A stretch of DNA of 33,331 bases, taken from a virus. The notes beneath the pieces are model-generated. The model did not search any database and had not been told where the DNA came from. It saw only the letters and a program-made list of their open reading frames with translations. Both the position numbers and the translations under genes were made by a program. Where the stretch lies: IMG/VR virus record IMGVR_UViG_3300009305_000071, positions 1 through 33,331 of that record, one strand, 5' to 3'. Shown in pieces: positions 1,880-29,606 of the stretch (the stretch's first letter is position 1; each line of letters begins with the position of its first letter).

Positions 1880-3292
1880 CTATCCAATTTCACATTCAAT
1901 CTCTGTACCATCAAGCAATGTTACAATTATTTTTTCCTCCTCAAAAACAATCATCTTCTCAATAATGCTAATGAATAAATCCATATCAAATTCTTCTATT
2001 GGTTCTGCATTTTTAAGAATCTCTATGAACTGCTTGGACTTATATTTTATCAAAGTATTCTCACTCTTTAAATGTTCCTTCCATTTTCCCATGAAATAAT
2101 CCCTGTTCTTAATCATTGCATTGAAAACATTTATAAATGTTTGAGATACAACTCTATCATCTATATGCTTGTTTTCACAACCCTTTTCCCCTTTGACTCT
2201 ATACTTGTTATTGCACCTCCATATTATCTTTCTAAATCTTTCATCATTAGAATTCCATACCTTCCTTCCAAAAGGACTGCTACATAGACCGCAAATTATC
2301 TTCCCTGCAAAAGGATTATTAGGTGAAGCATAATCAAGTTTGCTAATCCCATACTGTTCAGCAAATGTTTTTCTTCTCTCTATCTCAAGCTGGACTGCCT
2401 CCCATATATCTTTATCAATTATTGCGGGATGGCTTTCTTCAACATAATACTGTGGAACTTCCCCATTGTTTTCTACTCTCTTTTTTGTTAGAAAATCTAC
2501 TGTGTAAGTCTTTTGTAAAAGGGCATCTCCTTTATATTTCTCATTGCTTAGCATTTTTCTAATACTACTTTCATACCATTTAGTCTTACCATTCCAATTA
2601 GGTATTCCCTCATCTTCAAGTTCTCGTGCTATTCTATTTGAACCCTTGCCATCAAGATAATCTTTATAAATTCTTCTTACAATCTTGGCTTGCTTTTCAT
2701 CTATAATAAGGTTTCCTTCTTCATCCTTATCATATCCTAAAAACTTTTTATGGTTTACAAAGACTTTACCTTGTTCAAATTTTCTTCTAATTCCCCAGGT
2801 TGAGTTTTCGCTAATACTCCTCGATTCATCTTGGGCTAAGGAACTTAGGATTGTAAGGAGTACTTCTCCCTTTGAGTCTAATGTATTAATGTTTTCCTTT
2901 TCAAAAAGAACCCCTACTCCATGCTCCTTAAGCATTCTAACATAATTTAAAGTATCAAGTGTGTTCCTTGCAAACCTTGATATGGACTTGGTTATGATCA
3001 TATCTATTTTACCTACTTTACAATCTTCAATCATTTTATTAAACTGTTCTCTCTTTTTCGTGTTGGTTCCTGAAATTCCCTCATCTGCATAAATCCCTGC
3101 ACATTCATAATCTGGGTGATTTTCAATATAAGTTGTATAATAGTTTACCTGTGCTTCATAGCTTGATAACTGTTCTAGTTGGTCTGTTGACACTCTGCAG
3201 TATGCTGCCATTTTCTTTTTCTGTGGCTCTAGGCTCTCTGCTGTGCTCTGCCTGCTTGCTCTTGCTGGTATAACTGTAATGTTTCTTGCCAT
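1880..3292 (-). CDS. Large serine recombinase, second of pair
   Basis: 470 residues; site-specific recombinase likely to integrate and excise the prophage. Domains in order are an N-terminal resolvase catalytic domain (about 28-175) with the nucleophile Ser35 in YCRVST and the helix motif TKSISRFARN, a Recombinase domain (about 180-300), a zinc beta-ribbon with CxxC (about 335-380), then a helical C-terminal region of about 90 residues. AAAGGAGGG eight bases before the ATG at 3292 supports the start. The first 137 bases are also read in another frame as the end of the upstream recombinase, so the two are translationally linked. A terminator follows. All key residues look intact. Which partner is the real integrase, or whether both are needed, is not visible. 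Confidence 0.9.
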   Translation of the reverse strand: MARNITVIPARASRQSTAESLEPQKKKMAAYCRVSTDQLEQLSSYEAQVNYYTTYIENHPDYECAGIYADEGISGTNTKKREQFNKMIEDCKVGKIDMIITKSISRFARNTLDTLNYVRMLKEHGVGVLFEKENINTLDSKGEVLLTILSSLAQDESRSISENSTWGIRRKFEQGKVFVNHKKFLGYDKDEEGNLIIDEKQAKIVRRIYKDYLDGKGSNRIARELEDEGIPNWNGKTKWYESSIRKMLSNEKYKGDALLQKTYTVDFLTKKRVENNGEVPQYYVEESHPAIIDKDIWEAVQLEIERRKTFAEQYGISKLDYASPNNPFAGKIICGLCSSPFGRKVWNSNDERFRKIIWRCNNKYRVKGEKGCENKHIDDRVVSQTFINVFNAMIKNRDYFMGKWKEHLKSENTLIKYKSKQFIEILKNAEPIEEFDMDLFISIIEKMIVFEEEKIIVTLLDGTEIECEIG

Positions 3293-4445
3293 CTTTAATG
3301 CCCTCCTTTACAATAATTTCTTCTTTTATATTAAGCCTGCTTACAACCTCATCATCTATCTTTGTTCCTGGGCAGGCATCTTTTCCATCTTTAATGTAGT
3401 TACTACATTGCCATACAATCTTTCTACAGGAATGCTTGCTGTTCCAAGTTCTCCGTCTTAAAGTAGCACCACACTTACTGCAATAAAGCATTCCAGTAAG
3501 TGGATACCTCTTTGTGTACTTATCTGTTTCTCCTGCAATATTTCCCTTGGCTTTTGCTCTTTTCTCAATCTCTTCTTGAACTTGCTCCCACACCTCTCTA
3601 GGAACGATAGCAGAATGATTATCTTCTATATAATAGCTGTCAATTATGCCATCATTTCTTACAGAGTGTTTCTTTAAATGGTCTGGAGTGTAATACTTTT
3701 GAAGTATGGCATCACCTTTGTATTTTTCGTTCTTTAAAATCCCTAGAATGGTGGTATCATGCCATTTCCCACTCCCTATGGTAGGAATTCCATCTTCGTT
3801 AAGCCCTTTAGCTATAGTAAAGCTCCCTTTCCCACTTAGGTATTCTGTAAAAATTCTTCTAACCGCTTCTGCTTCTTTTCTGTTTATAACCAAATCTCCA
3901 TATTCATCTTTGTCATAGCCTAGAAATCTTGTGGTATTAATTATCAACTCTCCTTTTTCAAACTTCTTCCTAACTCTCCACTTAAGGTTGTCACTTACGT
4001 TTTTGCTTTCTTCCTGTGCAAATGAAGAGAGGACGGTAAGCATTAACTCCCCGTCCCCTGACAATGTATTTATATTTTCTTTTTCAAATCTTACTTCGAT
4101 ACCCAAATCCCTTAATTCCCTTACTATTTGTAGCATGATTGCTGTATTCCTTGCAAATCTTGAAATAGACTTTGTTATGATTAAATCCACCATTCCTTCT
4201 CTTGCAAGCTGAAGCATTCTTTGAAACTCTGGTCTATTTTCAGTAGTTCCTGTCACTCCTTTATCTGCAAACACACCTACAAATTCATACTTAGGATTAC
4301 TTGATAACATGTTTTCATAGAATTGTATTTGGTTCTCTAGGGATTCGCCTTGCTTTTCACTTTCCGTTGAAACCCTTGCATAGGCACACACTTTTTTCTT
4401 CGCCTTTTGAACCTTCTTCATCGGTTCTATAATTCTTACACGCAC
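3156..4445 (-). CDS. Large serine recombinase, first of pair
   Basis: 429 residues. It has a resolvase domain with nucleophile Ser26 (YARVST) and the TKSISRFARN helix, a Recombinase domain, and a zinc ribbon (CSKCG ... WQC ... CPG). Unlike its partner it has only about 60 residues after the zinc ribbon, so the coiled-coil segment of large serine integrases is short or missing. Its last 45 codons overlap the start of the second recombinase in a different frame. AAAGGAG at 4454-4460 is eight bases before GTG 4445, and touches an earlier in-frame GTG at 4454, so 4445 is the better start. A promoter with a dyad lies just upstream. Paired large serine recombinases acting together are known, for example CcrA/CcrB; cooperation here is inferred. 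Confidence 0.88.
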   Translation of the reverse strand: MRVRIIEPMKKVQKAKKKVCAYARVSTESEKQGESLENQIQFYENMLSSNPKYEFVGVFADKGVTGTTENRPEFQRMLQLAREGMVDLIITKSISRFARNTAIMLQIVRELRDLGIEVRFEKENINTLSGDGELMLTVLSSFAQEESKNVSDNLKWRVRKKFEKGELIINTTRFLGYDKDEYGDLVINRKEAEAVRRIFTEYLSGKGSFTIAKGLNEDGIPTIGSGKWHDTTILGILKNEKYKGDAILQKYYTPDHLKKHSVRNDGIIDSYYIEDNHSAIVPREVWEQVQEEIEKRAKAKGNIAGETDKYTKRYPLTGMLYCSKCGATLRRRTWNSKHSCRKIVWQCSNYIKDGKDACPGTKIDDEVVSRLNIKEEIIVKEGIKDGKKHYSYTSKSKQAEHSREPRATEKENGSILQSVNRPTRTVIKL

Positions 4446-4478
4446 TCTAATCACTCCTTTCTATCAAATTGCTACTAC

Positions 4479-6668: not shown

Positions 6669-6672
6669 AGTT

Positions 6673-8340
6673 TTAGAAATAATCTTCTCCGTAATCAACA
6701 AGATCAATTTCAAACATGTATTGAACTTTCATCGTATTTGCATCTGTTTTTTCAACAGGTAATGTTAGTTTTGTGTGGGCACCTATTGGTTTGCTTGTTA
6801 GCATATTTTGGATTAATAAATGATCATCATATTTCCCATAGTATCTGCTAATCCATCTATCTGTTCCCAATATATTGTGGTACGTAGTATAGCTTTCACT
6901 ATTAAACCCAAAATACATCTTATAGGGTTCAAGGAGATTACCTTGAGGTGTAATTACTTGGTAAAAACTTGTTCCTCCCTGGGTACCGCTATAATACAGA
7001 TAAATTCTATTTGCACTTCTGTAAAAGTTATATATCCTCACTCTTCTTTCAATATTTCCGCTATCCATACCCATCTTTGCAAACCAACTAGAATTTCCTA
7101 TCTTTGGCTTCATGTTCATATCTTGAACCTTATTACCTAATACATCAACTCTTATCCATCTGCTTGTGTAAATACTCTCATTATATTGTTCATCTGTTCT
7201 ATAGGTGTATCCAATTATATCAAGGCATCCATCCAAATAAATCCCATCATCGGATACGCTTCTATAAGAGAATAATATATTGTAATCTACATCCTTAAAA
7301 TCTTGACTCATATTTATATCCACATAGCTAAGTTGAACACCAACTTTACTCCATTTATATATTCTCAGCATACTCTCGCTATTAACACTATAGGTATAAT
7401 ACCCTATAAAAACAAGATTTCCATCGGGTTGAATGTAAGGACACCCTCCACTTAAGCCATCATACTTTTTAACCGGATCAGCACTGTCAACAACCAATGG
7501 ATTTCCATCAGTATTTAAAAGCTTTACTGCTTGCTCCCAAAGAGCTACATCATTTACATTAAGGTCAAAAGGTATCATTAACCAGTGACCTCTTAAATGC
7601 TCTGGGAATTGAATATAACTTGTTTGAGTAATATTAGTATCCTTCCCATCAAGCAGAACCCAACCTTTTGTCGGACTAGTAAACATTACCCTTCTAGCAT
7701 AATCGAACATTCTATAGACTGCCCAATATCTACTTGGATTTGTAGTACTATTTAACGCATAATCCGTATCACCAGTTTCCCTACCATATAAACTTGCACC
7801 GATATAAAAATAATCTTTAGTGTCAGGATCACTCTCTCCCCAATAAATGCTCTCAATAGTTCCATTGGCAGCATGGGTTGGAAAGTCAAAAACAAAATTT
7901 ATCCTTATCTTATTATCAGTAATCTCAAAGCGAGTTTCAGCTCTATTTATAGTTCCTCTTCTAATATCATCTCCTGAGTAAGTACTATTTCTATGGGCAT
8001 AACCTATAACATTACCCATCACTCTTTGTTCATTTGCAGTTTCCGGTTTGTCATGGTCAGTCAAGTAAAGATAATCAAACCAATCATAATTATATGAACT
8101 TCTAGAATTACCCGACCCCATAACTCCATTAACAAAATTTCTCAAAAAGATATCTTTAAAATATAAGTCTGGTATTAGATTTTCGGTGTAGGCTTCTTTA
8201 ACTTTTTCATTAGTTTTGGCATTAAATATTTCTAGAAGAACTTTTCCTTTGATTCCATTGTCTTTTTTATTCTTTTTATCACTTATGATTTCTCCAGTTA
8301 AGTGGTCCTTGTTGTAACTAATAACTTCTCTAATTCCCAT
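6673..8340 (-). CDS. Putative tail fibre / receptor-binding protein
   Basis: 555 residues, last structural gene before the lysis cassette, a position typical of the receptor-binding protein. The N-terminal ~60 residues are charged and probably dock to the tail; the rest is Tyr/Trp/Gly-rich beta-strand sequence with several WxxxDVxGN-like and YIQPDGNLV-like segments that resemble propeller blades. There is no enzyme motif I recognise. AAGGAGG precedes the ATG at 8340. A propeller-type host-binding fold is inferred from composition, not shown. Confidence 0.6.
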   Translation of the reverse strand: MGIREVISYNKDHLTGEIISDKKNKKDNGIKGKVLLEIFNAKTNEKVKEAYTENLIPDLYFKDIFLRNFVNGVMGSGNSRSSYNYDWFDYLYLTDHDKPETANEQRVMGNVIGYAHRNSTYSGDDIRRGTINRAETRFEITDNKIRINFVFDFPTHAANGTIESIYWGESDPDTKDYFYIGASLYGRETGDTDYALNSTTNPSRYWAVYRMFDYARRVMFTSPTKGWVLLDGKDTNITQTSYIQFPEHLRGHWLMIPFDLNVNDVALWEQAVKLLNTDGNPLVVDSADPVKKYDGLSGGCPYIQPDGNLVFIGYYTYSVNSESMLRIYKWSKVGVQLSYVDINMSQDFKDVDYNILFSYRSVSDDGIYLDGCLDIIGYTYRTDEQYNESIYTSRWIRVDVLGNKVQDMNMKPKIGNSSWFAKMGMDSGNIERRVRIYNFYRSANRIYLYYSGTQGGTSFYQVITPQGNLLEPYKMYFGFNSESYTTYHNILGTDRWISRYYGKYDDHLLIQNMLTSKPIGAHTKLTLPVEKTDANTMKVQYMFEIDLVDYGEDYF

Positions 8341-11984: not shown

Positions 11985-14554
11985 TACGCACCACCCCTTC
12001 CCATTGCTACTCTTTGTCTATAAAATTCTAACTCATAAGCAAGCTGCTCAATATCTTTATCTGTATTATTGATGAAATTTTCTATATGAAGGGTAAGTCC
12101 AGCACCTGAACTACCACCTTTTACTTTCTCCAGTGCTCTTGCCATTAAATCATCTAATCGGTCAATAGGAAGAACCGCTTCTGTTCCCGCTTCACCGACA
12201 CCGATAATACTCGGTCTATTAAAAATACCACCCTTTGCATACCAATCAACACTAAGCTTTGGTACACTTGGTGGAGCTAAACTAAAATCACCTTTAAGTG
12301 AAAAATGAGGAAGCTTTATCTTTGGTATCTTAATCTCTGGTAACTTTAATCTTGAGAAGAAATTATATATTGCATCTATTGCACCTTTTACAGTGTTTTT
12401 TGCAGCAGTGATAGGTGTTTCAATGGCTGATTTTATACCATTCCACACACTGGTTGTGACACTTTTAATCCCATTCCAAATACCAGATATAAGATTTTGC
12501 ACAAATTTCATCTCAAGTGAAACAACATTCTTTATAAAGTAAAGGGCGCTTTTAATAATATTTTTAAGTCCATTCCACAAATCATTGGTAAGGTTTTTTA
12601 TTCCTTCCCAGACACCCTGCCAATCTCCTTTTATAAGACTGGTAACAATCTTAATCACATCTTTAATTACATTGAGAGTAGTCTTTACAATGTTTGAAAT
12701 GATTTCAAAGGCTGAAGAAATAACAGCTACGATGTCATCACCATATTTACTCCATATATCAATTGCAAAAGTGATAAATGCCTCAAATAATGCTTTCAAG
12801 GCATCAATAATTGTTCCTATAATGGCCTTTACTTCATTCCATGTTTCATTCACAACATTTCTGAAATCCTCATTATTCTTGTATAGACCTACAAATACAG
12901 CAATAAGTCCTGCTATAGCTGCAATAGCAATTCCAATAGGACCAGTTAGTGCTGTAAAAGCAGCACCTAAGGCTCCACTTGCTCCACCTGCCGCTCCAAG
13001 GGTAGTTGATATTGATCCAAAGGTAGAAAAAAGAGTTCCTCCAACTGATACTAGCTTTCCTACCACTATTAACACTGGTCCGATGGCAGCTGCAACAAGG
13101 GCAAGTTTTAAAATCATATCCTGCTGTGCTGGTGAAAGAGCATTAAACTTTTCAATGATACTTGTGATTCCTTGTATTAGTTTTTGAATTGCAGGCATAG
13201 CCCCTTCCACAGCATCTAAAAGTCTTTTACCAAGAGGTTCTAATGCTACAGCCATTTGATTTTTAAGCACTGCAAACTTATCTGCTACGGTTTCTGTATC
13301 CTTAGCTGCCTTTTCTATTGTTTCAGGACTTGCCTTAATGCTTGCAATCAACTCATCAAGGTTAAGCCTTCCTTCTCTAATGGCAGCAGCCATATCTGGA
13401 CCTGCTCTTGCTCCAAACATCTCTAGTGCCATGGCATTGGCTTCACCGGATGTACCTGCTTCTTTAATACGTGTAATCATTTCAGCCAGTGCTTTATTCG
13501 GTTCACTAATACCTTCCTTAGCCATTTTACCAAGAGCAATTCTTAAGGAACCAACAACAAGTTCAGTGTTAACTCCTTCTTTTTCAAATTTACCTAGCAT
13601 TGCAGCAGATGTCTGCCAGTCAAAGCCCATTTGTCTTAAAGGACCACCAAACTGGGTCATCAATTGCTGAAGCTTACTAACACCTATTCCTGTACTTTGA
13701 CTAACTTTAAAGGTATAGTCCAAAGCATCGGCATACTCTTCCGCTCCAATTCCTGCATCTTGAAACATCCTAGTGGAGGCAGGAATAAGGCTATTGATAT
13801 CCTCACCTGTGATTTTAGCTAGTTTCAACATCTGAGTTGATAGTTCTTGAAGGGATTCTCCCGAAAGTCCTGTACGAGTATTTAGATCTGCAACCACTTG
13901 ACTAGCATCACCAATATTCGTATTCACTGAAGTATATACTGCTTTAAAGTCATCATTTAAATCTTGTAATGCTTCACCTGTTGCTCCGGTACCAATACGG
14001 ATTGTATTATTTGCACTTTCAAAATCATTAGCAAGTTTTAATAGTCCCGTACCAGCTGCAACTATGGGGGCTGTTACAGTCATGGATAGGTTCTTTCCTA
14101 CACTTGAAAACCCATCCCCTATGTTTTTCATCTTGCCACCAATACCTTCAAGGCTTTTCCCTAGCTTAGTAAATCCGCTGCTTTGAACTTCTATCTGTTT
14201 GTTGATATCAGAAAGCTCGCCTTCCATCTTGTTCATTTCAGCAATAGCATAGTTAAGCTTTATTTTTAGATTCTCGGTTGCTTTTGCATCCTCACCTTTT
14301 TTATCAGCACTTTCTTGGTAACTCTTTGTTAGTGCAGCGACTTTTGCCTTCTGAAGTTCCATTTGCTTGTTTAGACTGTCTGCCTTTAATTTCAGTCCTT
14401 CAGTAGACTTTCCAAAGTCACCCATCTTGGTGCTTGCAGCTGCAAATTCACTCTTCACAACCTTTAAGCTTCTCTGTATTTTAGCAACGCCTTCTTGAAA
14501 TCCTTTATCATCCAAACCTACTCTTGCAACAACTGTGTTACCACCAGTAGCCAT
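11984..14554 (-). CDS. Tail tape measure protein, TP901 family
   Basis: 856 residues. It sets tail length and is ejected with DNA. The sequence has a coiled-coil start (about 1-135), a TP901-type core (about 150-420; QLMTQFGGPLRQMGFDW, VGSLRIALGKMAKEG), hydrophobic membrane segments near 480-575, repeated WNGIK-type amphipathic segments (about 630-720) and a proline/lysine linker. Using the known rule of about 0.15 nm per residue, a tail of roughly 125 nm is expected. AAGGAGGTGAAGG precedes the ATG. It begins 19 bases after the frameshifted chaperone gene ends. Confidence 0.93.
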   Translation of the reverse strand: MATGGNTVVARVGLDDKGFQEGVAKIQRSLKVVKSEFAAASTKMGDFGKSTEGLKLKADSLNKQMELQKAKVAALTKSYQESADKKGEDAKATENLKIKLNYAIAEMNKMEGELSDINKQIEVQSSGFTKLGKSLEGIGGKMKNIGDGFSSVGKNLSMTVTAPIVAAGTGLLKLANDFESANNTIRIGTGATGEALQDLNDDFKAVYTSVNTNIGDASQVVADLNTRTGLSGESLQELSTQMLKLAKITGEDINSLIPASTRMFQDAGIGAEEYADALDYTFKVSQSTGIGVSKLQQLMTQFGGPLRQMGFDWQTSAAMLGKFEKEGVNTELVVGSLRIALGKMAKEGISEPNKALAEMITRIKEAGTSGEANAMALEMFGARAGPDMAAAIREGRLNLDELIASIKASPETIEKAAKDTETVADKFAVLKNQMAVALEPLGKRLLDAVEGAMPAIQKLIQGITSIIEKFNALSPAQQDMILKLALVAAAIGPVLIVVGKLVSVGGTLFSTFGSISTTLGAAGGASGALGAAFTALTGPIGIAIAAIAGLIAVFVGLYKNNEDFRNVVNETWNEVKAIIGTIIDALKALFEAFITFAIDIWSKYGDDIVAVISSAFEIISNIVKTTLNVIKDVIKIVTSLIKGDWQGVWEGIKNLTNDLWNGLKNIIKSALYFIKNVVSLEMKFVQNLISGIWNGIKSVTTSVWNGIKSAIETPITAAKNTVKGAIDAIYNFFSRLKLPEIKIPKIKLPHFSLKGDFSLAPPSVPKLSVDWYAKGGIFNRPSIIGVGEAGTEAVLPIDRLDDLMARALEKVKGGSSGAGLTLHIENFINNTDKDIEQLAYELEFYRQRVAMGRGGA

Positions 14555-14573
14555 TTATTCCTTCACCTCCTTC

Positions 14574-14774
14574 CTAAAACAAAATGTTGTCAATGGTATC
14601 AAAACCATCTTGTTCCTCTAATCCATTGACCTTTTTATATACCTTAAAGAGAGCCTGCAATTTTTTAGGGGTACAGTTCCAAAACTGCTCTTCTGCCATC
14701 TTCAGAAGATTGGTTGCTAAATAGAAAAGCCACTCCCAGTCCCATGAATTAGAACTAGTGTGGCTATCTATTCC
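14574..14774 (-). CDS. Tail chaperone frameshift extension (T part of GT)
   Basis: A 66-residue frame with no credible start of its own continues the chaperone in the -1 frame. It reads GIDSHTSSNSWDWEWLFYLA..., ends at TAG 14574-14576 and abuts the tape measure gene, as expected for the gpT-like part of a lambda-type G/GT pair. A stop in the -1 frame limits the slip window to about six codons, and a run of five G (14773-14777) lies inside it, so a shift on GGG is the best guess. The fused product would be about 172 residues. Position and frame are seen; the shift itself is inferred. Confidence 0.7.
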   Translation of the reverse strand, partial: GIDSHTSSNSWDWEWLFYLATNLLKMAEEQFWNCTPKKLQALFKVYKKVNGLEEQDGFDTIDNILF

Positions 14775-15091
14775 CCCATATTTTCTTCAGCCTCAGGCAT
14801 TGCTGTACTCAAGGCTTCATTTATTGCTATCCCTAACCTTTCAAGATCATTAATTCCAAGTTTCTCACCAACATCCTTTAATGTAGCAGTTTCATCTTCT
14901 ACCTTTACTGCTGCGAATATTAATGCTCTAATAGCTTTTACTTTCATATTCTGCAAGTCATCAAAGGCTTTATTCAAATCTCCATAAACCTCTTCTAATT
15001 CACAGAAAGTGTTCATGTTGAATTTCAGTTCATATTCCTTATCACCTAATATGAATTTAATACCTTTGTTTTTAAGTTCTGATGCTTTCAA
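14768..15091 (-). CDS. Tail assembly chaperone (gpG-like)
   Basis: 107 residues, starting with TTG at 15091 after AAGGAG ten bases upstream. The Leu/Glu-rich helical sequence (FCELEEVYGDLNKAFDDL, LGINDLERLGIAINEAL) is typical of Firmicute tail chaperones that coat the tape measure during assembly. It ends at TAG 14768-14770, immediately after the slip window for the GT product. A moron gene and its terminator separate it from the major tail protein. Confidence 0.8.
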   Translation of the reverse strand: MKASELKNKGIKFILGDKEYELKFNMNTFCELEEVYGDLNKAFDDLQNMKVKAIRALIFAAVKVEDETATLKDVGEKLGINDLERLGIAINEALSTAMPEAEENMGE

Positions 15092-15115
15092 TACTTATCA
15101 TCTCCTTCTTCCAAT

Positions 15116-15144
15116 AAAAAAAGGATCTACTCTAAGTAAACCCT
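15116..15144 (-). terminator. Terminator of the moron at 15153-15929
   Basis: On the minus strand AGGGTTTAC pairs with GTAGATCCT (nine pairs, two G-T) around a 5-base loop, followed by seven T residues (15116-15122). It starts nine bases past the moron stop and just before the tail chaperone. Confidence 0.8.
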
Positions 15145-15152
15145 CTACATAC

Positions 15153-15929
15153 TTACATGAAATTCTTTACATCCTCGTATGCGAATAATGGAATGTCATA
15201 CAAATCCCCAAAATTCTCATAAATAATTTCAGATGCTTTAAAAACACTCTTTAATGAAGTGATTAGTGGTAATTTAATTCCCAAGTAATACGATGCCTCA
15301 ATAACACGTGCATCGGCTACACAGCATAATTTACCATCAATGTTTTTATATGTGTTTTGACACCGTAATTCTCTTAAAATTAATGGGATTTTAATTTTCA
15401 TTCTGTTATTACCTGAACCCAAGCCGTGTAATTGACTAATATAATCAATAAACAGAAAATAATTATTGTTTTTTTCAGACTCAGATAACTTCTCTTTAAT
15501 CGTCATCCAATTTTCAGCCAAAACTACTAAACTATCATAAAAATCAGATCTAAAACTTACCTTTTTTCTTGGTATTAGACCATTACACTCTTTCAAAAAT
15601 CTTTGTAATTCGTTTTCTATTATTATCTTATTTTTTTTCAGCTCATTTTTATCTATCCAAAAGCTAAACTCATCTAACTTACTGTGTTTTAAGCATGCAG
15701 TGAAAAAAGCAGCATTCTCCCAAGGTCCCGTCTTTGACCACGATGAAGCCAAAACAAATAATAAGAATAAATCTGAATCATTACTTAAATTTAGTTTCAT
15801 TCTTTCACCATTAGGAAGATAAAAACCAAAGTTTGATATCCATCCTCTGTACTTATTGTTTTCATCTAAGTTTATATAAGGAATGTCATTTTTTCTGCTA
15901 ATAGTTGCCTGTATCAATGTATCTTTCAT
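15153..15929 (-). CDS. Unknown protein, moron inside tail operon
   Basis: 258 residues of no family I can name. It splits the usual pair of major tail protein and tail chaperone, and it has its own promoter (15960-15988) and terminator (15116-15144). GGAGTG nine bases before the ATG at 15929 sets the start. The sequence is soluble, with Trp/Phe-rich N-terminal part. Near 170-230 a segment reading LHGLGSGNNRMK ... CVADARVIEASYYLGI recalls, weakly, the helix-hairpin-helix region of DNA glycosylase-like proteins. That is a hint only. Low structural-gene character and independent signals suggest expression in the lysogen, perhaps for immunity to other phages. Confidence 0.7.
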   Translation of the reverse strand: MKDTLIQATISRKNDIPYINLDENNKYRGWISNFGFYLPNGERMKLNLSNDSDLFLLFVLASSWSKTGPWENAAFFTACLKHSKLDEFSFWIDKNELKKNKIIIENELQRFLKECNGLIPRKKVSFRSDFYDSLVVLAENWMTIKEKLSESEKNNNYFLFIDYISQLHGLGSGNNRMKIKIPLILRELRCQNTYKNIDGKLCCVADARVIEASYYLGIKLPLITSLKSVFKASEIIYENFGDLYDIPLFAYEDVKNFM

Positions 15930-15959
15930 AATAATCACTCCAGCCATTATATTACCCTA

Positions 15960-15988
15960 ATTATACCAATATCCTCCCTACGTTGCAA
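15960..15988 (-). promoter_or_regulatory. Strong promoter of the tail-operon moron
   Basis: On the minus strand TTGCAA (15983-15988), a 17-base spacer, then a perfect TATAAT (15960-15965) preceded by TGG, an extended -10. The -35 region overlaps the last codons of the major tail protein gene. This is the best consensus promoter I see in the window. Confidence 0.75.
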
Positions 15989-16547
15989 TTGGTTCATCTG
16001 GTACAGCTGTAAACCATGAAGTAATAATTGTCTGATCAATATCAACCGCATCTTCATCTCCAATAAAACGATAATTACCATCAAAGTCCCTAGCAAAGAA
16101 AGTACCCTTTAGTTTTGCACTCTTTGGCTGTGGCTTTTCTCCTTCTGTATCGTATTCATCAGATGCTAGTTCAAATTTTCCTTTAAGTAACCACACATAT
16201 CGGTACTTCCCATTATTTTTCTTCGATTTGAACCCAAGAGCAATGGTAGGTGGCATATCATCTTTACTTTCAATCAGTACACCTTTCACAACCTTTGACC
16301 CCTGAAGCTTTGCTCTACTTTCTAAAGACAGTTGGTTGATTTCTATTTCAACATCTACTCCTTCAAAAGCTGTAATTACATCTTCCACCGTATCGTCAGA
16401 ATAAATATTTTCTGAATTTGACTTAGGTGTTAGCTTAGCACTAATTGCCCTTTCAAGCTTAGAGGGTACATCATAAGTTGTCCCTGTATTATCATCCTTT
16501 GTCAAAAGAGCAATATGAATATCTCTTAAACCTATTTGTCTTGCCAT
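15978..16547 (-). CDS. Major tail protein, phi13 family
   Basis: 189 residues; builds the tail tube. It has the family-typical start (MARQIGLRDIHIALLT), a DTVEDVITAFEGVDVEIEINQLS segment and the GTFFARDFDGNYRF end region. AAGGAGG precedes the ATG. It follows the tail terminator gene without a gap, and the promoter of the moron is embedded in its end. Confidence 0.92.
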   Translation of the reverse strand: MARQIGLRDIHIALLTKDDNTGTTYDVPSKLERAISAKLTPKSNSENIYSDDTVEDVITAFEGVDVEIEINQLSLESRAKLQGSKVVKGVLIESKDDMPPTIALGFKSKKNNGKYRYVWLLKGKFELASDEYDTEGEKPQPKSAKLKGTFFARDFDGNYRFIGDEDAVDIDQTIITSWFTAVPDEPIAT

Positions 16548-16883
16548 CTATTTGACCTCCTTCTCTTCTAAATAAAAAAACCTCATACCCTTATGGTAGA
16601 GATCCGTGTCTTTCTCATATAAATCTGCTTCATCAAGCCGTTTAAATCCTACAGTTTGAAGTAAGTCTTTAATCGACTTTACTAAAACCGTATAATCATC
16701 CTTTGACCATACATCCACTTGAATATAATGACCGGTGAATACTTCTTCATCCTCTTCAAAGGCTTCTCCACTTTCAATATACTCATGAAAAGTGATGTAT
16801 GTTTTAGCCTTACCAGTGTATTTTTGAAAACATACTGGAACTGATAGTGGTTTTAAAGTATTGATGAGCAATTTATTAATCAA
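16548..16883 (-). CDS. Tail terminator / tail completion protein
   Basis: 111 residues, TTG start at 16883 overlapping the gp10-like stop by 8 bases, with GAGG just before it. Small alpha/beta protein with YTGKAKTYITFHEYIE and GHYIQVDVWSKDDY segments as in Firmicute tail completion proteins that cap the tail tube at the head end. Family assigned by motif and position. Confidence 0.8.
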   Translation of the reverse strand: MINKLLINTLKPLSVPVCFQKYTGKAKTYITFHEYIESGEAFEEDEEVFTGHYIQVDVWSKDDYTVLVKSIKDLLQTVGFKRLDEADLYEKDTDLYHKGMRFFYLEEKEVK

Positions 16884-17274
16884 TTTCCTCTAGCCCCCTC
16901 TCAAGTTCCTCTTTGATTATTACATTAATTTCTCTTTTATTTTCTAACACAGATTTTTCTGCCCAGTGCTGTGCAGGGATTTTGGAAGTTCCCCATTCAG
17001 TAAATTTACTGTAGTAAAACTCAGAGTTATCTCCCTTATTGGGGCCTACCTTTATAAAATCAACCCCATCTTCCTTTTCAATATCTGATACCTTAATATG
17101 ATCAGCCATGTGTTTTTTTGCTAATTTTGATCTAGGTGCTTTTTTCTCCATCGAGGATTTAACTCGTTCCCCTGCTCTAGCAAGTGCATTCTTTTTAATA
17201 TCCTCACCCTTGTCACCTAGCTTATTTATCTTATCGATTAAGGCATCCATACCCTCAAGTTCAAGTTTAGCCAT
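16876..17274 (-). CDS. HK97 gp10-like head-tail protein
   Basis: 132 residues. The Lys/Glu-rich start (GMDALIDKINKLGDKGEDIKK), SSMEKKAPRS and FYSKFTEWGTSKIPAQHW segments are characteristic of the HK97-gp10 family that acts in neck assembly. GGAGGTGG precedes the ATG. It overlaps both neighbours by 8 bases, a coupled neck-gene string. Confidence 0.88.
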   Translation of the reverse strand: MAKLELEGMDALIDKINKLGDKGEDIKKNALARAGERVKSSMEKKAPRSKLAKKHMADHIKVSDIEKEDGVDFIKVGPNKGDNSEFYYSKFTEWGTSKIPAQHWAEKSVLENKREINVIIKEELERGLEEID

Positions 17275-19337: not shown

Positions 19338-20033
19338 CTATATTTTTAGTAGATTTAATCTCTTCTCGAGATTTTCAATTGGTGTTCCAGTTGGTTCGTT
19401 ATCCTTTTTATGTGGCAGCTTACTTAAGATTGAATTTGTAACTGCCATCCTACTAAAAATGACACCCTCATTTGTAGGTGTCATCTCCTCTTTACTTTCA
19501 AACATAATGGCATCTGCAAAGCCAAGTTCAACAGCTTTTTTAGCGTTAAACCAACTTTCAGCATCCATTAGATGAGATAGTTTTGTCCTTGAAAGACCAG
19601 TTTTTAATTCATAAGCGTTAATAATTGCCTCTTTTACTTCACTAAGCATAGAGATTGCTTTTTCCATCTCTACAGTATCTCCAATGGCTACTGTCATAGG
19701 ATTGTGAATCATAAAAAGTCCTGTAGGAGATATCAAAACCTCTCCCCCTGCCATTGCAATTACAGATGCTGCACTTGCTGCAATGCCATCAATTTTCACT
19801 GTTACTTTGCCTTTGTAGTCCATGAGCATATTGTAGATTTGACTTGCTGCGAATACGTCACCACCTGGTGAATTAATCCAAATTGTAATATCACCATCTC
19901 CATTAAACAGTTCTGATTTAAACTGCTTAGGTGTTACTTCATCACCAAGCCAAGTTTCTTCTGCAATTGCTCCGTCAAGATAAAGAGTTCTTCCATCTTC
20001 GTTCTTGACCCAATTCCAAAACTTTTTATTCAT
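19338..20033 (-). CDS. ClpP-like head maturation protease
   Basis: 231 residues. Serine-protease fold of the ClpP family with the oxyanion segment INSPGGDVFAA, nucleophile Ser in GIAASAASVIAM and catalytic His in MIHNPM. It trims the capsid delta domain and processes itself. The ATG at 20033 overlaps the portal stop by 8 bases; AAGGAG lies 12 bases upstream, and an alternative TTG at 20045 is too close to it. Confidence 0.93.
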   Translation of the reverse strand: MNKKFWNWVKNEDGRTLYLDGAIAEETWLGDEVTPKQFKSELFNGDGDITIWINSPGGDVFAASQIYNMLMDYKGKVTVKIDGIAASAASVIAMAGGEVLISPTGLFMIHNPMTVAIGDTVEMEKAISMLSEVKEAIINAYELKTGLSRTKLSHLMDAESWFNAKKAVELGFADAIMFESKEEMTPTNEGVIFSRMAVTNSILSKLPHKKDNEPTGTPIENLEKRLNLLKI

Positions 20034-21297
20034 TATTTTTATCAACTCCTTCTATATTGGTTTTACCAGCAAATGCTCCTGCATTTTCTAACTTAGTCAT
20101 ATTGCCATTAATAAGGTATAGGTCTCCACCAAGTTCTGCTGGGATTCGATTTAGGTTTTCAAGTTCTCTCACATCATTTGCTGATAGCCAACCATTTTGT
20201 CTGCCAACAGCATACCCATTCATTCTTGATGCATAGTCACCTCTGAGTAGTCCATCCACATTAAATTTGATAAAATACTCTTTCTTTTCAGTTGGTGAGA
20301 GAAGCGCTTTTTGTATTGCCTGTTCCCACCTAATTACCCAAGGATCAAGTGTGTATTTCACAAACTCCAATGACTGCTGCTCAATATTTGAAAAGCTTGA
20401 CTTCTCTAAATCACCAATCATATGAGGTGGGATTCGAAAGATACGAGCAATTTCATTGATTTGGAACTTCCTAGTTTCTAAAAACTGTGCCTGTTCTGGG
20501 GGAATACCTATACTATTAAATTTCATACCTTCTTCTAAAACAGCAATTCGATGAGCATTACCACTTCCTTGATACACTGCATTCCAACTATCCCTTACTC
20601 TCTTTGGGTCTTTAACTATTCCAGGGTGTTCTAACACTCCTCCTGGATTTGCTCCATTGGAGAAAAAAGTTGCTCCATATTCTTCTGTTGCTATTGCCAT
20701 GCCGATTGCATTCTTGGCCATAGCAATTGGAGAATAACCGATACGTCCATCAAAACCTAAACCTGGAATGTGGAGTACTTCCTCTTTTCTTAAGTACACT
20801 TGACCATAACCTTGCATATTGGGATTTTCTCCTGCATCTTTAGTGTAGATATAATAGATTTCACCACTCGATGTTCTATCTACACTCATCTTGTTTGGTA
20901 GTAAAGGGTATAACCCTATAACCTGTCCCCTACCATCACGAATAATCTGTGCATATGCATTTCCCCATAATAAAAGATGACTCATCAGTGTTTCTCTGAA
21001 CACAAATGAAGTCATCTCAGGGTTTGGCTCATCATGGAGCAGATAATATAAAGAATGATTGATTACTTTTTCTTTTCCATCTTTTGTGTATCTATAGGTA
21101 TGGAGTGGCAAACTTGCTACTGCTTCAGCTAAAATTCTCACACAAGCATATACTGCTGTTGTTTGCATAGCGGTTCTTTCATTGACTGTTTTGCCACTGG
21201 TAGTTCCACCAAAGAAAAAACTATATGAATTACCATATAAACTATTTTTAGGGCCATCTCTTGATTGAAAGAGTTTTGATATTATTGGTATTTTCAC
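20026..21297 (-). CDS. Portal protein, HK97 family
   Basis: 423 residues. It forms the dodecameric gate through which DNA is packed. Typical segments are AVYACVRILAEAVASLPLH, LLWGNAYAQIIRDGRG and RIFRIPPHMIGDLEKSSFSNIEQQ. The start is GTG 21297 after AGGAGG (21304-21309); the longer frame up to 21333 would run through a terminator hairpin and lacks a site. Confidence 0.93.
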   Translation of the reverse strand: MKIPIISKLFQSRDGPKNSLYGNSYSFFFGGTTSGKTVNERTAMQTTAVYACVRILAEAVASLPLHTYRYTKDGKEKVINHSLYYLLHDEPNPEMTSFVFRETLMSHLLLWGNAYAQIIRDGRGQVIGLYPLLPNKMSVDRTSSGEIYYIYTKDAGENPNMQGYGQVYLRKEEVLHIPGLGFDGRIGYSPIAMAKNAIGMAIATEEYGATFFSNGANPGGVLEHPGIVKDPKRVRDSWNAVYQGSGNAHRIAVLEEGMKFNSIGIPPEQAQFLETRKFQINEIARIFRIPPHMIGDLEKSSFSNIEQQSLEFVKYTLDPWVIRWEQAIQKALLSPTEKKEYFIKFNVDGLLRGDYASRMNGYAVGRQNGWLSANDVRELENLNRIPAELGGDLYLINGNMTKLENAGAFAGKTNIEGVDKNNE

Positions 21298-21320
21298 TGT
21301 TTCACCTCCTAAAAATGGGC

Positions 21321-21349
21321 ATAAGAAAAGCACTTCTACCTAGAAGTGC
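21321..21349 (-). terminator. Terminator between Phd-like moron and portal
   Basis: GCACTTCTA (21330-21338) and TAGAAGTGC (21341-21349) form a perfect 9-base inverted repeat, followed on the minus strand by TTTTCTTATG. It ends the moron transcript 36 bases after its stop. Confidence 0.75.
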
Positions 21350-21384
21350 CTATTATCACATTATATTGTTGGGTACTAACATCA

Positions 21385-22416
21385 CTAGTTTTTTCTATAA
21401 ACTTGACAATTCTTTATTTTCTTGTCAAGTTCAATTACATTGCTTATTACATTATCTCTAACTTTTCCTACAAATCTTTTTCCCAATAATTTTCTTACCG
21501 TAAAAGGAACATATGACCAATATTCACTCAATACTCCGTTAACGGTAAACTCAGTTCCACTTGATAAATTTTCTATCTTTTCTAGAAGTATTATCATTAA
21601 CTTAGGCTCTAGCCATTTCTCAAAAGCGTCTTTATGGAGATTTTCTACCCATTGGGAGCATAAAATATAATCTTTTCCTCTTACTGATATTACTGTATCA
21701 TAATATCGGTTATAACCCTTTTGGTCTCTTTTTTGTTGGTCGAATTCAATATTTTTAACTACTTCTTTTATAACTGGAAAGTTTAAGTTAAAAACTTCTT
21801 TAGAGTAGTTCTCATCTTTCATTAGATTTAATTCTTCATCAGTAATTACTAGTTCTTGAAGGAACCTTGAAATTAAAGTTCTTGCCATTTTACCAATTTT
21901 CACTTCATTTTCATCTTCAATTTCATAATTATCATCAACTATTACTTGAGAGCTATTTTGAACTTCGTTCTCAATAATATTTTTTGCTGTTTCCAAAGTA
22001 TCTTCATCTAATCTAGAAGATTGAAGAATATTTTTTAAAGCTTCAATTTCTAAGTTGTTTTTAAATATTTTTCTAGCACTTGAACATCTACTTCTTCTAG
22101 AATTAAGGGTAAAACTATCTGGTAACTTTTCTTCTGGGTTTATATCTTCCTTAAAAATGTAGAAGTAATCTACGAAGATTTTCTTGCCAATTTTATTAAG
22201 CAGATTTTCTAACCCTTCGTCATTTAAATCTTCTAATTCATTAACATCTTCATCATTTCCGAGTAATTCTTCATAACGTTTAATTGTCATTAGTACATAT
22301 GCAGGCTTGTTGTTGTGAAATACAAATAGTTCCTTCTCTGTATCTATTCTTTCAGATACATTTTCAAAATCATTTAACTCTGACTGACCTATAATCTTCC
22401 CAATATCAACCTTCAT
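21385..22416 (-). CDS. Phd-like N-terminus plus DUF1413-like C-terminus, moron
   Basis: 343 residues between terminase and portal, where no gene is normally found. Residues ~1-55 resemble the Phd/YefM antitoxin fold (LFVFHNNKPAYVLMTIKRYEELL), a DNA-binding dimer. A middle part has RRSRCSSARKIF. The last ~70 residues (GTEFTVNGVLSEYW, LGKRF) recall DUF1413, a small domain of unknown function. A preceding segment, SVRGKDYILCSQWVE, is conserved-looking but unnamed. AGGAGG precedes the ATG at 22416, and promoter, inverted repeat and terminator are its own. No partner toxin gene is adjacent, so a toxin-antitoxin role is not supported; it may be a self-regulating lysogen-expressed effector. Confidence 0.65.
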   Translation of the reverse strand: MKVDIGKIIGQSELNDFENVSERIDTEKELFVFHNNKPAYVLMTIKRYEELLGNDEDVNELEDLNDEGLENLLNKIGKKIFVDYFYIFKEDINPEEKLPDSFTLNSRRSRCSSARKIFKNNLEIEALKNILQSSRLDEDTLETAKNIIENEVQNSSQVIVDDNYEIEDENEVKIGKMARTLISRFLQELVITDEELNLMKDENYSKEVFNLNFPVIKEVVKNIEFDQQKRDQKGYNRYYDTVISVRGKDYILCSQWVENLHKDAFEKWLEPKLMIILLEKIENLSSGTEFTVNGVLSEYWSYVPFTVRKLLGKRFVGKVRDNVISNVIELDKKIKNCQVYRKN

Positions 22417-22456: not shown

Positions 22457-22500
22457 AGTATATCACCTTTTGTTTTGTTTGTATACCCCTAAACAAAACA
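22457..22500 (-). promoter_or_regulatory. Moron promoter framed by a 10-bp inverted repeat
   Basis: On the minus strand TATACA (22480-22485), 17 bases, TATACT (22457-22462) is a plausible promoter. Perfect 10-base arms TGTTTTGTTT (22471-22480) and AAACAAAACA (22491-22500) enclose the -35 box, as an operator would. Read on the plus strand the repeat is followed by T6 and could terminate transcription, but no plus-strand gene is there. Confidence 0.5.
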
Positions 22501-22533: not shown

Positions 22534-24045
22534 CTAATATTCCTCTCTCATCATACACACTTCCACCACTGCCATTATTAAAGCAACTGCACCGTCAATA
22601 CGTTCAGTGCTTTTCTCTTTGTCTGGCTTTATGTTTCCTGCAGGATCAGTTTTGACATAGATGTTATCCATCATCCAACGAAGTACTGGGTTTCCTCCAT
22701 GGGCAATTTTCTTTTCTAGTGTCAGTTTCATAAGTTCTTTAGAAGAAGGTGACATATCCTTATACCCTTGTCCAAAAGGAACTACTACAAATCCCATTCC
22801 ATCAAGGTTTTGAACCATCTGCACAGCACCCCAACGGTCAAATGCAATTTCTTTTATGTTGTATATCTTACCTAGTTCTTCAATGAAACTCTCTATAAAG
22901 CCATAGTGGACCACGTTGCCTTCAGTAGTTTTTATAAAACCTTGTTGTTCCCATACATCATAAGGAACATGATCCCTTCTTACTCTGAGTTTAAGATTAT
23001 CATCTGGAATCCAAAAGTAAGGTAATACTATATACTTTTCTTCCGATGTTCTTGGTGGAAAAACTAATACAAAAGCAGTAATATCCGTTGTGCTAGAAAG
23101 GTCAAGCCCTCCATAACACTCTCTGCCTTTTAATGAATCTAAATCTATATTAAAATCACACTCATCCCATCTATCCATCTGCATCCAACGAGTGGACTGT
23201 TTTACCCATTGATTTAATCTTAGCTGACGAAATATATTTTCTTCAGCAGGATTTTCCTTTGCACTGTTATAAGCATTTCTAACTTTTTCTATGTCAATGG
23301 TATGTCCTAGAGATGGGTTTGCCTTATACCAGTTCTTCTCTAGACCCCAATCATCATTATCATCAATCCCATAAATAACTGGATAAAAAGTTGGATCTAT
23401 TTTTCTACCCTCAATAATATCCAGCGCCTTTTGGTGTTGTTCAAAGCATATAGAATTTCTATCTGTACCAGCTGTAGTTATAAGAAAAAATAGCGGTTGC
23501 AGTCTTGCATCACCACTACCTTTGGTCATTACGTCAAATAAATCTCTATTAGGTTGAGCATGAAGTTCATCAAATACAACTGCATGAACATTAAGACCAT
23601 GCTTTGTATAGGCTTCAGCTGAAAGCACCTGGTAAAAACTATTTGTTGGCTTATATACTAACCTTTTCATTGACATTACTGGCTTAATTCTTTTCTTTAA
23701 TGCTGGACATTGCTCCACCATCTCAACTGCTACATCAAAAACAATAGAGGCCTGCTGCCTATCAGATGCACATCCATAAACCTCTGCTCCCCATTCATTA
23801 TCACCACAAGTCATCAAAAGTGCTACCGCTGCTGCAAGTTCTGATTTACCATTCTTTTTGGGAATTTCTATATAAGCAGTATTATACTGACGGTATCCAT
23901 TTTCTTTTACTGTTCCATATATATCTCGAATGATTTTATTTTGCCATGGAAGTAAATCAAAAGGAACTCCTCTCCATTGACCTTTTGTGTGCTTTAGGCA
24001 GTTGATAAAATTAACAGCTCTCTGTGCTTTCTTTTCATCATACAT
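22534..24045 (-). CDS. Terminase large subunit
   Basis: 503 residues; ATPase and nuclease that drives DNA into the head. Seen motifs are Walker A-like IPKKNGKSE (61-69), Walker B VVFDE with D159/E160, and nuclease aspartates D315 (GGLDLSS), D403 (AFDRWG) and D484 (ERIDGA). Full length, HK97-type. Its ATG shares a base with the small subunit stop (TAATG). Confidence 0.95.
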   Translation of the reverse strand: MYDEKKAQRAVNFINCLKHTKGQWRGVPFDLLPWQNKIIRDIYGTVKENGYRQYNTAYIEIPKKNGKSELAAAVALLMTCGDNEWGAEVYGCASDRQQASIVFDVAVEMVEQCPALKKRIKPVMSMKRLVYKPTNSFYQVLSAEAYTKHGLNVHAVVFDELHAQPNRDLFDVMTKGSGDARLQPLFFLITTAGTDRNSICFEQHQKALDIIEGRKIDPTFYPVIYGIDDNDDWGLEKNWYKANPSLGHTIDIEKVRNAYNSAKENPAEENIFRQLRLNQWVKQSTRWMQMDRWDECDFNIDLDSLKGRECYGGLDLSSTTDITAFVLVFPPRTSEEKYIVLPYFWIPDDNLKLRVRRDHVPYDVWEQQGFIKTTEGNVVHYGFIESFIEELGKIYNIKEIAFDRWGAVQMVQNLDGMGFVVVPFGQGYKDMSPSSKELMKLTLEKKIAHGGNPVLRWMMDNIYVKTDPAGNIKPDKEKSTERIDGAVALIMAVVEVCMMREEY

Positions 24046-24818: not shown

Positions 24819-25283
24819 TTAGCTCTCCTCCTTCAACTCAGATAAACATTCTGAATATGCAATTTGTAGAGGTTTTAGATGAATTCTATTGTCTGAATAT
24901 CCTCTAGCAATAACGTTGAAATAATATTCTGTAGGAGCCGCTACCATATTGGTATATTTGCTTGCCATAATATAAACCATAGTTTTTCTAGGTTTTCCAT
25001 CTACCATAATCTCTACTTGCTTTTTAATATATAGGTTCGGATAACCTTCATATATATCAAGTGCCCTTTCACATTCCTCAGTGATTTCCCATAAAACAAC
25101 GGGTACTAATCTATCCTTGCATGGTTCAATGTTTGCTACCCCTTTGTACTTTCCTCTAAAGGTTAGCTTGTAATCATGAAGTGTTCCAATCCCTATCACC
25201 TTTGCTTTAGGACATCTTTGTTTCATCTGTTCAATATTCATATTTGAACCGTATGCACCATACAGCTTTGTTTTTCCTGCCAT
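24819..25283 (-). CDS. Gamma-glutamylcyclotransferase-like protein
   Basis: 154 residues of the GGCT/AIG2 fold. The substrate loop YGAYGSNM and catalytic glutamate E79 in DIYEGYP are both present, so the protein should be active. The family releases 5-oxoproline from gamma-glutamyl amines or peptides. AAAGGAG precedes the ATG at 25283. The neighbouring amidoligase makes the kind of gamma-glutamyl-like amide bond this enzyme could cleave, an association known from comparative genomics of the amidoligase superfamily. The substrate here is unknown. Confidence 0.8.
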   Translation of the reverse strand: MAGKTKLYGAYGSNMNIEQMKQRCPKAKVIGIGTLHDYKLTFRGKYKGVANIEPCKDRLVPVVLWEITEECERALDIYEGYPNLYIKKQVEIMVDGKPRKTMVYIMASKYTNMVAAPTEYYFNVIARGYSDNRIHLKPLQIAYSECLSELKEES

Positions 25284-25314
25284 TTCATCATTTCTCCTTT
25301 ACTGATTTTATTTG

Positions 25315-25342
25315 CCAAGAGGGGCAATTTAGCCCCTCTTGG
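25315..25342. repeat. Perfect 11-bp hairpin between amidoligase and cyclotransferase
   Basis: CCAAGAGGGGC (25315-25325) and GCCCCTCTTGG (25332-25342) form an 11-base GC-rich stem with a 6-base loop. It has no proper T-run on the minus strand (CAAATAAAATC follows), so an RNA-stabilising or processing element, or a weak attenuator, fits better than a classical terminator. Confidence 0.7.
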
Positions 25343-25352
25343 TAGTCTATTT

Positions 25353-26261
25353 TTAAGCGGCTCTAGGTGTTTTCCAAGCTGCATTTCCATCAAGTGATTT
25401 CATAAGGTGCTGTCTGCAGTTTTTGAACTCCTCACCAATAAGTCCTAATCGAAGCAACCAACATCTGAATGTGTACTTCTCGTTATCTGTGTAAGTGCGT
25501 TTTGCACTAGCACTCTTTTGACTTAATGCTTGGTGGCTTACCGCTAGGCAGAAAACTATGTAACTCCTAATTTTACCTGCGTGCATGGTACCGTTGAAAA
25601 GTCTGAATTCAATGGTGCCTTTTGTGAATGTGCTGTGAAGGTTGAGCCCATGATATCTACTGGAATGGTAGTGTCTACTTCTGCTTTCAGCACCGTATTC
25701 GCTGTACCAAATGTCTGCAAGTTCTATTAAGGTTTTTGGCTTTTTCTTGTTTATGGTTTTAATCAAATTCTCGTTTACCTTTTTGCAATATCTCATTCTT
25801 GAGGGGTCAATCTCTAGACTCTTGTAAATCAAGTCTTCCTTTGATGCCGTTAGGTTAACTAAATTCTTTAGGGTGTTCGGAGTATGGTCTTTTGCACCAA
25901 TATGAATGTGTATTCCACACTGTAGCTTGCTTTCACTAACTGCACCTGAATGTCTAAGCTGTCTGATCAGTTCTTGTAAAGTTTCAATGTCCTCATCATA
26001 CTCTAAAATGGGTGTAACCAATTCAACACTGTAACTTTTATCTGCTGAAACAAGTCTGCCTTTCTCTTTCTTCCTTGTCTCAATGCTTGCATCACTCATT
26101 ATTTTCCAAACTCTATTATCTGGTGCAGTTATTTTGTAGGTATCGTAGCTGTCAAAGGTTCTTTTAACTGTTCCACCTAGAAAATTTGCTGTTACTTCAG
26201 CAGCTTTTTCTCTAGTAATGCCTGTCATTTCAATTTCAACGCCAATGGTTTGATTTTTCAA
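25353..26261 (-). CDS. Amidoligase (COOH-NH2 ligase)
   Basis: 302 residues of the Amidoligase_2 family, with glutamine-synthetase-like fold, expected to use ATP to join a carboxylate to an amine, often on peptides or proteins. Visible signature segments are GVEIEM near the start, VELVTP, CGIHIHIGA, RYHGLNLH and TIEFRLFNGT, which carry the metal- and nucleotide-binding Glu, His and Arg. The start is TTG 26261, nine bases after AAAGGGG. That ribosome site can be covered by an upstream exact complement. It stands in a cassette with the cyclotransferase-like and zinc-ribbon genes between the methyltransferases and the terminase. Confidence 0.85.
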   Translation of the reverse strand: MKNQTIGVEIEMTGITREKAAEVTANFLGGTVKRTFDSYDTYKITAPDNRVWKIMSDASIETRKKEKGRLVSADKSYSVELVTPILEYDEDIETLQELIRQLRHSGAVSESKLQCGIHIHIGAKDHTPNTLKNLVNLTASKEDLIYKSLEIDPSRMRYCKKVNENLIKTINKKKPKTLIELADIWYSEYGAESRSRHYHSSRYHGLNLHSTFTKGTIEFRLFNGTMHAGKIRSYIVFCLAVSHQALSQKSASAKRTYTDNEKYTFRCWLLRLGLIGEEFKNCRQHLMKSLDGNAAWKTPRAA

Positions 26262-29589: not shown

Positions 29590-29606
29590 TCATTTCAATT
29601 ACTTTA

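Follow-up and report, generated by a model that had tools for sequence, protein, structure and literature searches.

Introduction

Anti-phage DNA glycosylases have been described in Brig1 (PMC11078745) and Brig3 (PMC13160076), both of which belong to the uracil-DNA-glycosylase (UDG) superfamily, and restriction glycosylases form a further kind of defence glycosylase (PMC10273834). Diverse defence cargo is also carried by phages themselves, in variable moron slots within an otherwise conserved phage backbone, as exemplified by the hotspots of P2 and P4 (PMC9122126). Glycosylases of the helix-hairpin-helix (HhH) fold are represented here by the Ogg2 enzymes, encoded by a core repair gene, and by Qng1 (DUF2419), a queuosine-5′-monophosphate N-glycosylase of about 330 residues that serves in nucleotide salvage. 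A literature search pairing HhH-GPD with phage defence returned no defence glycosylase of HhH fold, a result that does not prove absence.

Here, we describe a single-gene cassette within the window, the term used below for the whole stretch of DNA analysed, a virus record of 33,331 bp. The gene encodes a 258-residue protein with a predicted HhH DNA-glycosylase fold. The logic that we propose for it resembles that of Brig1 and Brig3, namely a single-protein glycosylase near defence genes that leaves abasic sites in phage DNA, whereas the predicted fold differs from that of the UDG superfamily. In contrast to the P2/P4 hotspots, the cargo considered here occupies two slots within the late structural operon of clostridial siphophages, with promoter and terminator borders that are reused around it. 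The reading that we favour, with about even chances of being correct, is that the cassette is a moron expressed in the lysogen, whose product is a divergent N-glycosylase of HhH fold that would most likely protect the lysogen against incoming phage.

Organisation of the cassette

The cassette lies on the minus strand and runs in the direction of the tail genes in the late operon. As the initial annotation had proposed, it is placed between a major tail protein gene (15978–16547, minus strand; phrog_88, E 1.4e-49; Phage_TTP_1) and a gene for a tail assembly chaperone-like protein (14768–15091, minus strand; phrog_2115, E 7.7e-26), which form the upstream and downstream borders of the slot, respectively. 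The chaperone-like protein also matches the tail chaperone group phrog_183, and its match to Phage_TAC_12 is below the cut-off of that profile.

The consensus promoter that had been read from the sequence is indeed present as a promoter-like site, TTGCAA-17-TATAAT with an extended TG (15960–15988, minus strand), reaching into the end of the major tail gene. With 10 of 12 consensus bases it is the top sigma-70-type match within positions 14000–17000, and shuffling the local 100 bp 100 times gave one equal match; such matches occur at chance level in the region (11 observed against 10.6 in shuffled sequence) and without excess in the whole window (63 against 70.5 by chance). A sequence resembling a ribosome-binding site, GGAGTGA (15935–15941, minus strand), stands 5 nt ahead of the ATG of the 258-residue gene (15153–15929, minus strand). 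An earlier ATG at 15947 would extend the reading frame to 264 residues (15153–15947); the length of 258 residues originally assigned to the gene is nevertheless right, because its homologues begin at the second ATG (15929), behind GGAGTGA. The reading frame is AT-rich, with a GC content of 29.6% against 37% in the major tail gene. The cassette ends in an intrinsic terminator (15117–15146, minus strand), a hairpin of 12 pairs with a loop of 3 (15146–15120) followed by a T tract, whose free energy of −10.7 kcal/mol was matched by none of 20 shuffles, in keeping with its earlier description as a good terminator. This anatomy of promoter-like site, reading frame and terminator is well supported at the level of the sequence. 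The promoter may allow the gene to be expressed from an otherwise silent prophage.

Strong terminators in the direction of transcription are a feature of these late operons, both in the window (15146–15117 and 21351–21328) and in the related loci L001–L013, L026, L038 and L065. Because they face transcription, the expression of tail and head genes farther along must depend on read-through, on antitermination or on a separate promoter.

A tail slot with exchangeable cargo

Related viral loci were gathered through the major tail protein, yielding 46 loci, in 44 of which the chaperone gene could be placed. The junction is empty in 29 of these contigs (a gap of 22–33 nt between the tail and chaperone genes) and holds 0.4–1.6 kb of extra DNA in the other 15, and the studied gene is found in none of the 44, counts that are not independent because some contigs are near-duplicates. 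The proposal of a self-contained cargo unit is thus supported, since the gene is missing from every junction spanned and 15 junctions carry other material; the opposite arrangement, a gene fixed at this place in most related phages with no promoter, was not seen, given its absence from all 44.

Unrelated genes occupy 12 of the 15 filled junctions, and the remaining three (L043, L044 and L045) contain only short repetitive reading frames. These three inserts consist of some 450 nt of short-period repeats that encode low-complexity peptides (EMELKLEMEQ-like and EITQEQMKIQK-like), with no cassette. Among the twelve, L006 carries a complete ToxIN unit (6670–7410), with 3.2 copies of a 40-nt repeat ahead of a ToxN gene that is recognised by Pfam (E 4e-48) and as AbiQ by PADLOC (E 1e-46). 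Further cargo comprises a RES-domain protein (L001), a PD-(D/E)XK protein with a second small gene (L041), a GIY-YIG protein (L005), a MerR protein (L013), a ferredoxin-like [2Fe-2S] BFD protein (L009), a PNPOx-like protein (L002), a CPCC protein (L038) and several unknowns. The tail proteins closest to that of the window (90%) are those of L001 and L002, where the slot is filled by the RES and PNPOx genes. Part of the cargo, namely the MerR, BFD and PNPOx genes, has no obvious defence role.

When the twelve are taken together with the window, a terminator hairpin (dG −7.8 to −15) is found 17–38 nt ahead of the chaperone start in 11 of 13, in each case with an energy reached in none of 20 shuffles; hairpins are visible in L032 and L041 but failed the criteria for a terminator. 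Promoter-like sites following the tail gene beat 95% of shuffles in 5 of the 13. The first 45–65 nt of the insert, on the promoter side, are 77–94% alike in L005, L009 and L013, as are the last 60 nt or so, on the terminator side, in L005, L007, L009 and L013, whereas the coding parts are unrelated. Because similar borders surround unrelated coding parts, cargo in the tail slot appears, from these sequence comparisons, to be swapped between promoter-side and terminator-side borders that are used repeatedly.

A second slot between terminase and portal genes

A second cassette is present in the window between the genes for the terminase large subunit (22534–24045, minus strand; phrog_9, PF20441) and the portal protein (20026–21333, minus strand; phrog_12, PF04860). 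It consists of an AT-rich gene for a 343-residue protein with a DUF1413 domain and a weakly antitoxin-like N-terminus (21385–22416, minus strand), preceded by a promoter-like site, TATACA-17-TATACT with a TG (22457–22485, minus strand), and followed by a terminator (21328–21351, minus strand) of a type common to other cargo at this junction, where it recurs ahead of the portal gene. The gap between terminase and portal genes measures 512–1076 nt in several relatives, as against about 80 nt or less in others. Cargo at this position includes a GmrSD_N gene paired with a HEPN gene in L038 (3–1425; PADLOC NsnA, E 1e-56, and PD-T4-2_A, E 1e-40), a ParE toxin with a probable antitoxin in L039 (431–1031) and a DUF1643 protein in L032. 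Of the cargo proteins at this junction, that encoded at 149–655 of L002 and that at 21385–22416 of the window share a similar antitoxin-like N-terminal start, beyond which the C-terminal parts or the partner genes differ.

The closest viral homologue of the studied gene (L062/L065/L077, 54–55% identity) resides in the terminase–portal slot of a phage whose portal and terminase proteins are 79% and 76% identical to those of the window, and this copy is framed by its own promoter-like site and terminator. Both slots are therefore used by the same gene family, the tail slot in the window and the terminase–portal slot in its relative.

Elsewhere in the window, two serine-recombinase genes lie in tandem (1880–3292 and 3156–4454, together spanning 1880–4454, minus strand; PF00239, PF07508), which is consistent with a temperate phage. 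Beyond them stands a gene for a NOV_C-domain protein (370–1665) with a promoter-like site at 1825–1797, possibly another cargo gene. A gamma-glutamyl cyclotransferase gene adjoins an amidoligase gene upstream of the terminase genes (24819–26261), and a protein with non-specific endonuclease and lamin-tail domains is encoded at 29607–30761, a gene closed by a terminator at 29591–29568.

Distribution, neighbourhood and selection

Pattern and profile scans added six intact homologues to the window protein, all of them in Clostridia: L047 from Clostridium tunisiense, L048 from a Clostridia metagenome-assembled genome, L063, L064, L065 and L066. Together with the window protein, these seven intact members are 53–59% identical, and degraded fragments are present in L067, L068 and L069. 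A tblastn search of phage and plasmid records returned no homologue of the 258-residue protein. The family is rare, occurring in 2 of 391 genomes at the level of the class (one being the starting genome), in 1 of 398 at the level of the phylum (again the starting genome), and in 5 of 67 genomes of one order, where one of the five is just a 32-residue match.

Defence-type genes recur in the surroundings of several bacterial copies. L048 is neighboured by McrBC, by a DUF429 gene and by a GIY-YIG-like gene, the last called by eye and without a Pfam match; L047 by a GIY-YIG gene and a macro-domain gene, the macro domain likewise assigned by eye; and L064 by AbiEi/AbiEii and a macro domain. In L068, a SIR2-STAND (SIR2-NB-ARC) protein adjoins the degraded copy. 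The neighbours of L066 are ordinary, with none of defence type. Chromosomal copies stand outside recognisable prophages. Homology of the window to the chromosomal C. tunisiense copy extends, at the nucleotide level, through the terminator, an indication that the gene moves together with its terminator.

The ratio dN/dS is 0.13 for the closest pair (L063 and L064), a value that points to purifying selection, and about 0.2 for the window against L047. A functionless gene, whether a chance reading frame or a decaying one, has nothing in its favour beyond the absence of the gene from relatives; it is already contradicted by the conservation data, with seven intact members at 53–59% identity, dN/dS of about 0.13–0.2 and a confident fold, and has next to no chance of being the explanation.

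These observations also bear on whether the gene might serve the phage rather than the lysogen, as an HhH protein, with or without catalytic activity, that guards the DNA of the phage itself or disturbs host defence during infection. Its location within the late operon and its shared orientation with the tail genes would suit such a role, and HhH proteins can act as pure DNA binders. However, the gene has its own promoter and terminator, is absent from all related phages examined, and has chromosomal copies outside recognisable prophages, so that we consider a role in counter-defence or phage biology very improbable.

Predicted fold and candidate catalytic residues

Comparisons of the protein with Pfam, PHROGs, NCBIfam, PADLOC and PDB sequences gave no credible match, in agreement with the initial view that it belongs to no familiar family. 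PADLOC-DB contained no match up to E 1, and none of the seven members matched HhH-GPD, Ogg-HhH or AGOG in Pfam-A up to E 5 (with HMMER filters on). Profile–profile alignments with fragments of EndoIII, AlkA, Qng1 and Ogg2 were not significant, a scan with the AGOG profile gave nothing usable, and among the loci returned by the Ogg-HhH profile in Clostridia the nine that were extracted were EndoIII. Three kinds of match were rejected: a Pfam match to TssO of the type VI secretion system (E 0.0004), which is below its cut-off and was obtained with only one of seven homologues; PDB matches to cyclolavandulyl and undecaprenyl diphosphate synthases (E 0.14 and above), taken as chance; and a match to ribosomal protein L10a, also taken as chance.

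AlphaFold2 modelling from the seven sequences gave a best model with pLDDT 82.2 and pTM 0.85, the one confident model of five (pLDDT 54–62 for the other four). It supersedes an earlier model from three sequences (pLDDT 52.6), for which Qng1, Mag1 and OGG1 were already listed at Z 2–3. With VIA-align the best match is SsOgg (3fhg; Z 12.5 over 192 residues, rmsd 3.2), followed by MjOgg (3knt; 12.4), TmOgg (3n0u; 12.3), Mag1 (10.5), Qng1 (10.3), EndoIII (9.6), and then MagIII and OGG1; every one of the 50 entries listed is an HhH glycosylase or Qng1. Middling Z scores can be attained by chance for helical folds. Plain Foldseek was weak (E about 0.9), its first four matches being glycosylases, and a viral structure library contained no significant match, with Endonuclease III in third place (E 0.9). 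Structures of the UDG fold, as in the Brig proteins, were absent from the matches listed by VIA-align and Foldseek. An HhH DNA-glycosylase fold is thus well supported by the model, and the membership in HhH-GPD rests on this predicted fold and an aspartate, because the profile–profile scores were not significant. The faint glycosylase-like HhH segment pointed out in the initial annotation has in this way proved right by predicted fold.

In the model, a helix (residues 158–165), a GLG hairpin and a second helix (176–190) form the HhH unit (codons 158–190; 15360–15458, minus strand), and an invariant Asp206 (codon 15312–15314, minus strand) is found just ahead of a further helix (207–215). In an ungapped scan of the whole alignment, the catalytic-aspartate motif of EndoIII fell on Asp206 (15.1, next 0.6), as did that of Qng1, with the best motif score (16.1, next 6.7); the Ogg2 motif placed Asp206 second, and the OGG1 motif did not find it. 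The motif windows were chosen by the analyst, and PDB sequences served to verify those of Qng1 and Ogg2. By motif scan and model, Asp206 is thus a candidate for the HhH catalytic aspartate. Lys180, also invariant, lies in the second HhH helix, one position off Lys129 of MjOgg in the best sequence register, and the nucleophilic lysine of bifunctional enzymes has no clear equivalent in the family.

The likeness to the Ogg2 enzymes (Z 12.3–12.5 over 190–194 of about 207 residues, rmsd 3.2–3.6) includes the GLG hairpin and the aspartate ahead of the next helix. Sequence identity is only 12–16%, the window protein is about 50 residues longer, and in place of the Ogg2 motif KGIGxKEASHFLRN the family has GLGxGxxRM[KR]IK[IV]PLILREL. 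That 8-oxoguanine glycosylases of the Ogg2 group are the best fold matches, and that the tail slot holds redox- or stress-like cargo elsewhere (PNPOx in L002, the ferredoxin-like BFD protein in L009), would accord with an Ogg- or Alk-like enzyme that removes oxidised or alkylated bases and aids stress survival of the lysogen, with no anti-phage role. Yet the gene is rare and patchy even within Clostridia, decaying copies are found in defence-type surroundings, carrier genomes already encode two to four HhH-GPD enzymes, and the Ogg2 lysine is not clearly kept. Whereas Ogg2 is a core repair gene, the present family occurs in cassettes of phages and next to defence genes, and a moron for repair seems to us unlikely.

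Qng1 (7uk3, 7u1o) is aligned at Z about 10 over 207–219 residues, and covers nearly the whole model (Z 10.3, 207 residues); the Asp-x-[KR]-V helix start of Qng1 aligns on Asp206, and its catalytic-aspartate motif scored best of all. The product could accordingly release a base from tRNA or the nucleotide pool, and function either as a toxin of abortive infection or in salvage. Against this, the Ogg2 enzymes score higher (Z 12.5), and no antitoxin-like partner gene travels with the studied gene. The catalytic residues of Qng1 are a pair, a lysine (FYKRAQ) and an aspartate (FADY), and in the best sequence register the family does not conserve the lysine, FYKRAQ having no visible counterpart. Qng1 is also the larger protein. 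A Qng1-like activity of this kind is therefore, in our estimate, quite improbable.

A proposed role in phage defence

We return to the favoured reading, that of a moron: one gene, equipped with a private promoter and terminator, occupies a cargo slot in the late operon, and its product would be a divergent N-glycosylase with an HhH fold, similar to EndoIII, Ogg2 and Qng1. From this fold, the invariant aspartate and established knowledge of HhH glycosylases, we infer an N-glycosylase with Asp206 as its probable catalytic acid. The enzyme would remove a base, probably modified or unusual, from the nucleic acid of an incoming phage, and the resulting abasic sites may block replication or be cut by nucleases.

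An anti-phage role is favoured because of the company in the slots, which includes ToxIN/AbiQ and GmrSD with HEPN, the defence-type neighbours of the bacterial copies, the patchiness of the gene and the precedent of Brig1 and Brig3. Since the slot company includes defence systems and the protein has the predicted shape of a base-removing enzyme, it is a good candidate for a new kind of anti-phage defence glycosylase. More tentatively, and on balance doubtfully, the family might represent a new class of defence, in which a single-protein glycosylase of HhH fold removes a modified base, possibly of the 7-deazaguanine type in view of the likeness to Qng1, from phage DNA, and which has spread among clostridial phages and chromosomes by swapping into late-operon slots with promoter and terminator frames.

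Wider implications

In just 44 contigs, the two slots together hold ToxIN, RES, PD-(D/E)XK, GIY-YIG, GmrSD with HEPN, ParE and several undescribed genes, and reading both slots thus offers a simple harvest of unknown defence genes. A phage-carried defence glycosylase of HhH fold, if true, would widen the idea of the defence glycosylase, and would point to clostridial phages that contain modified bases as its target.
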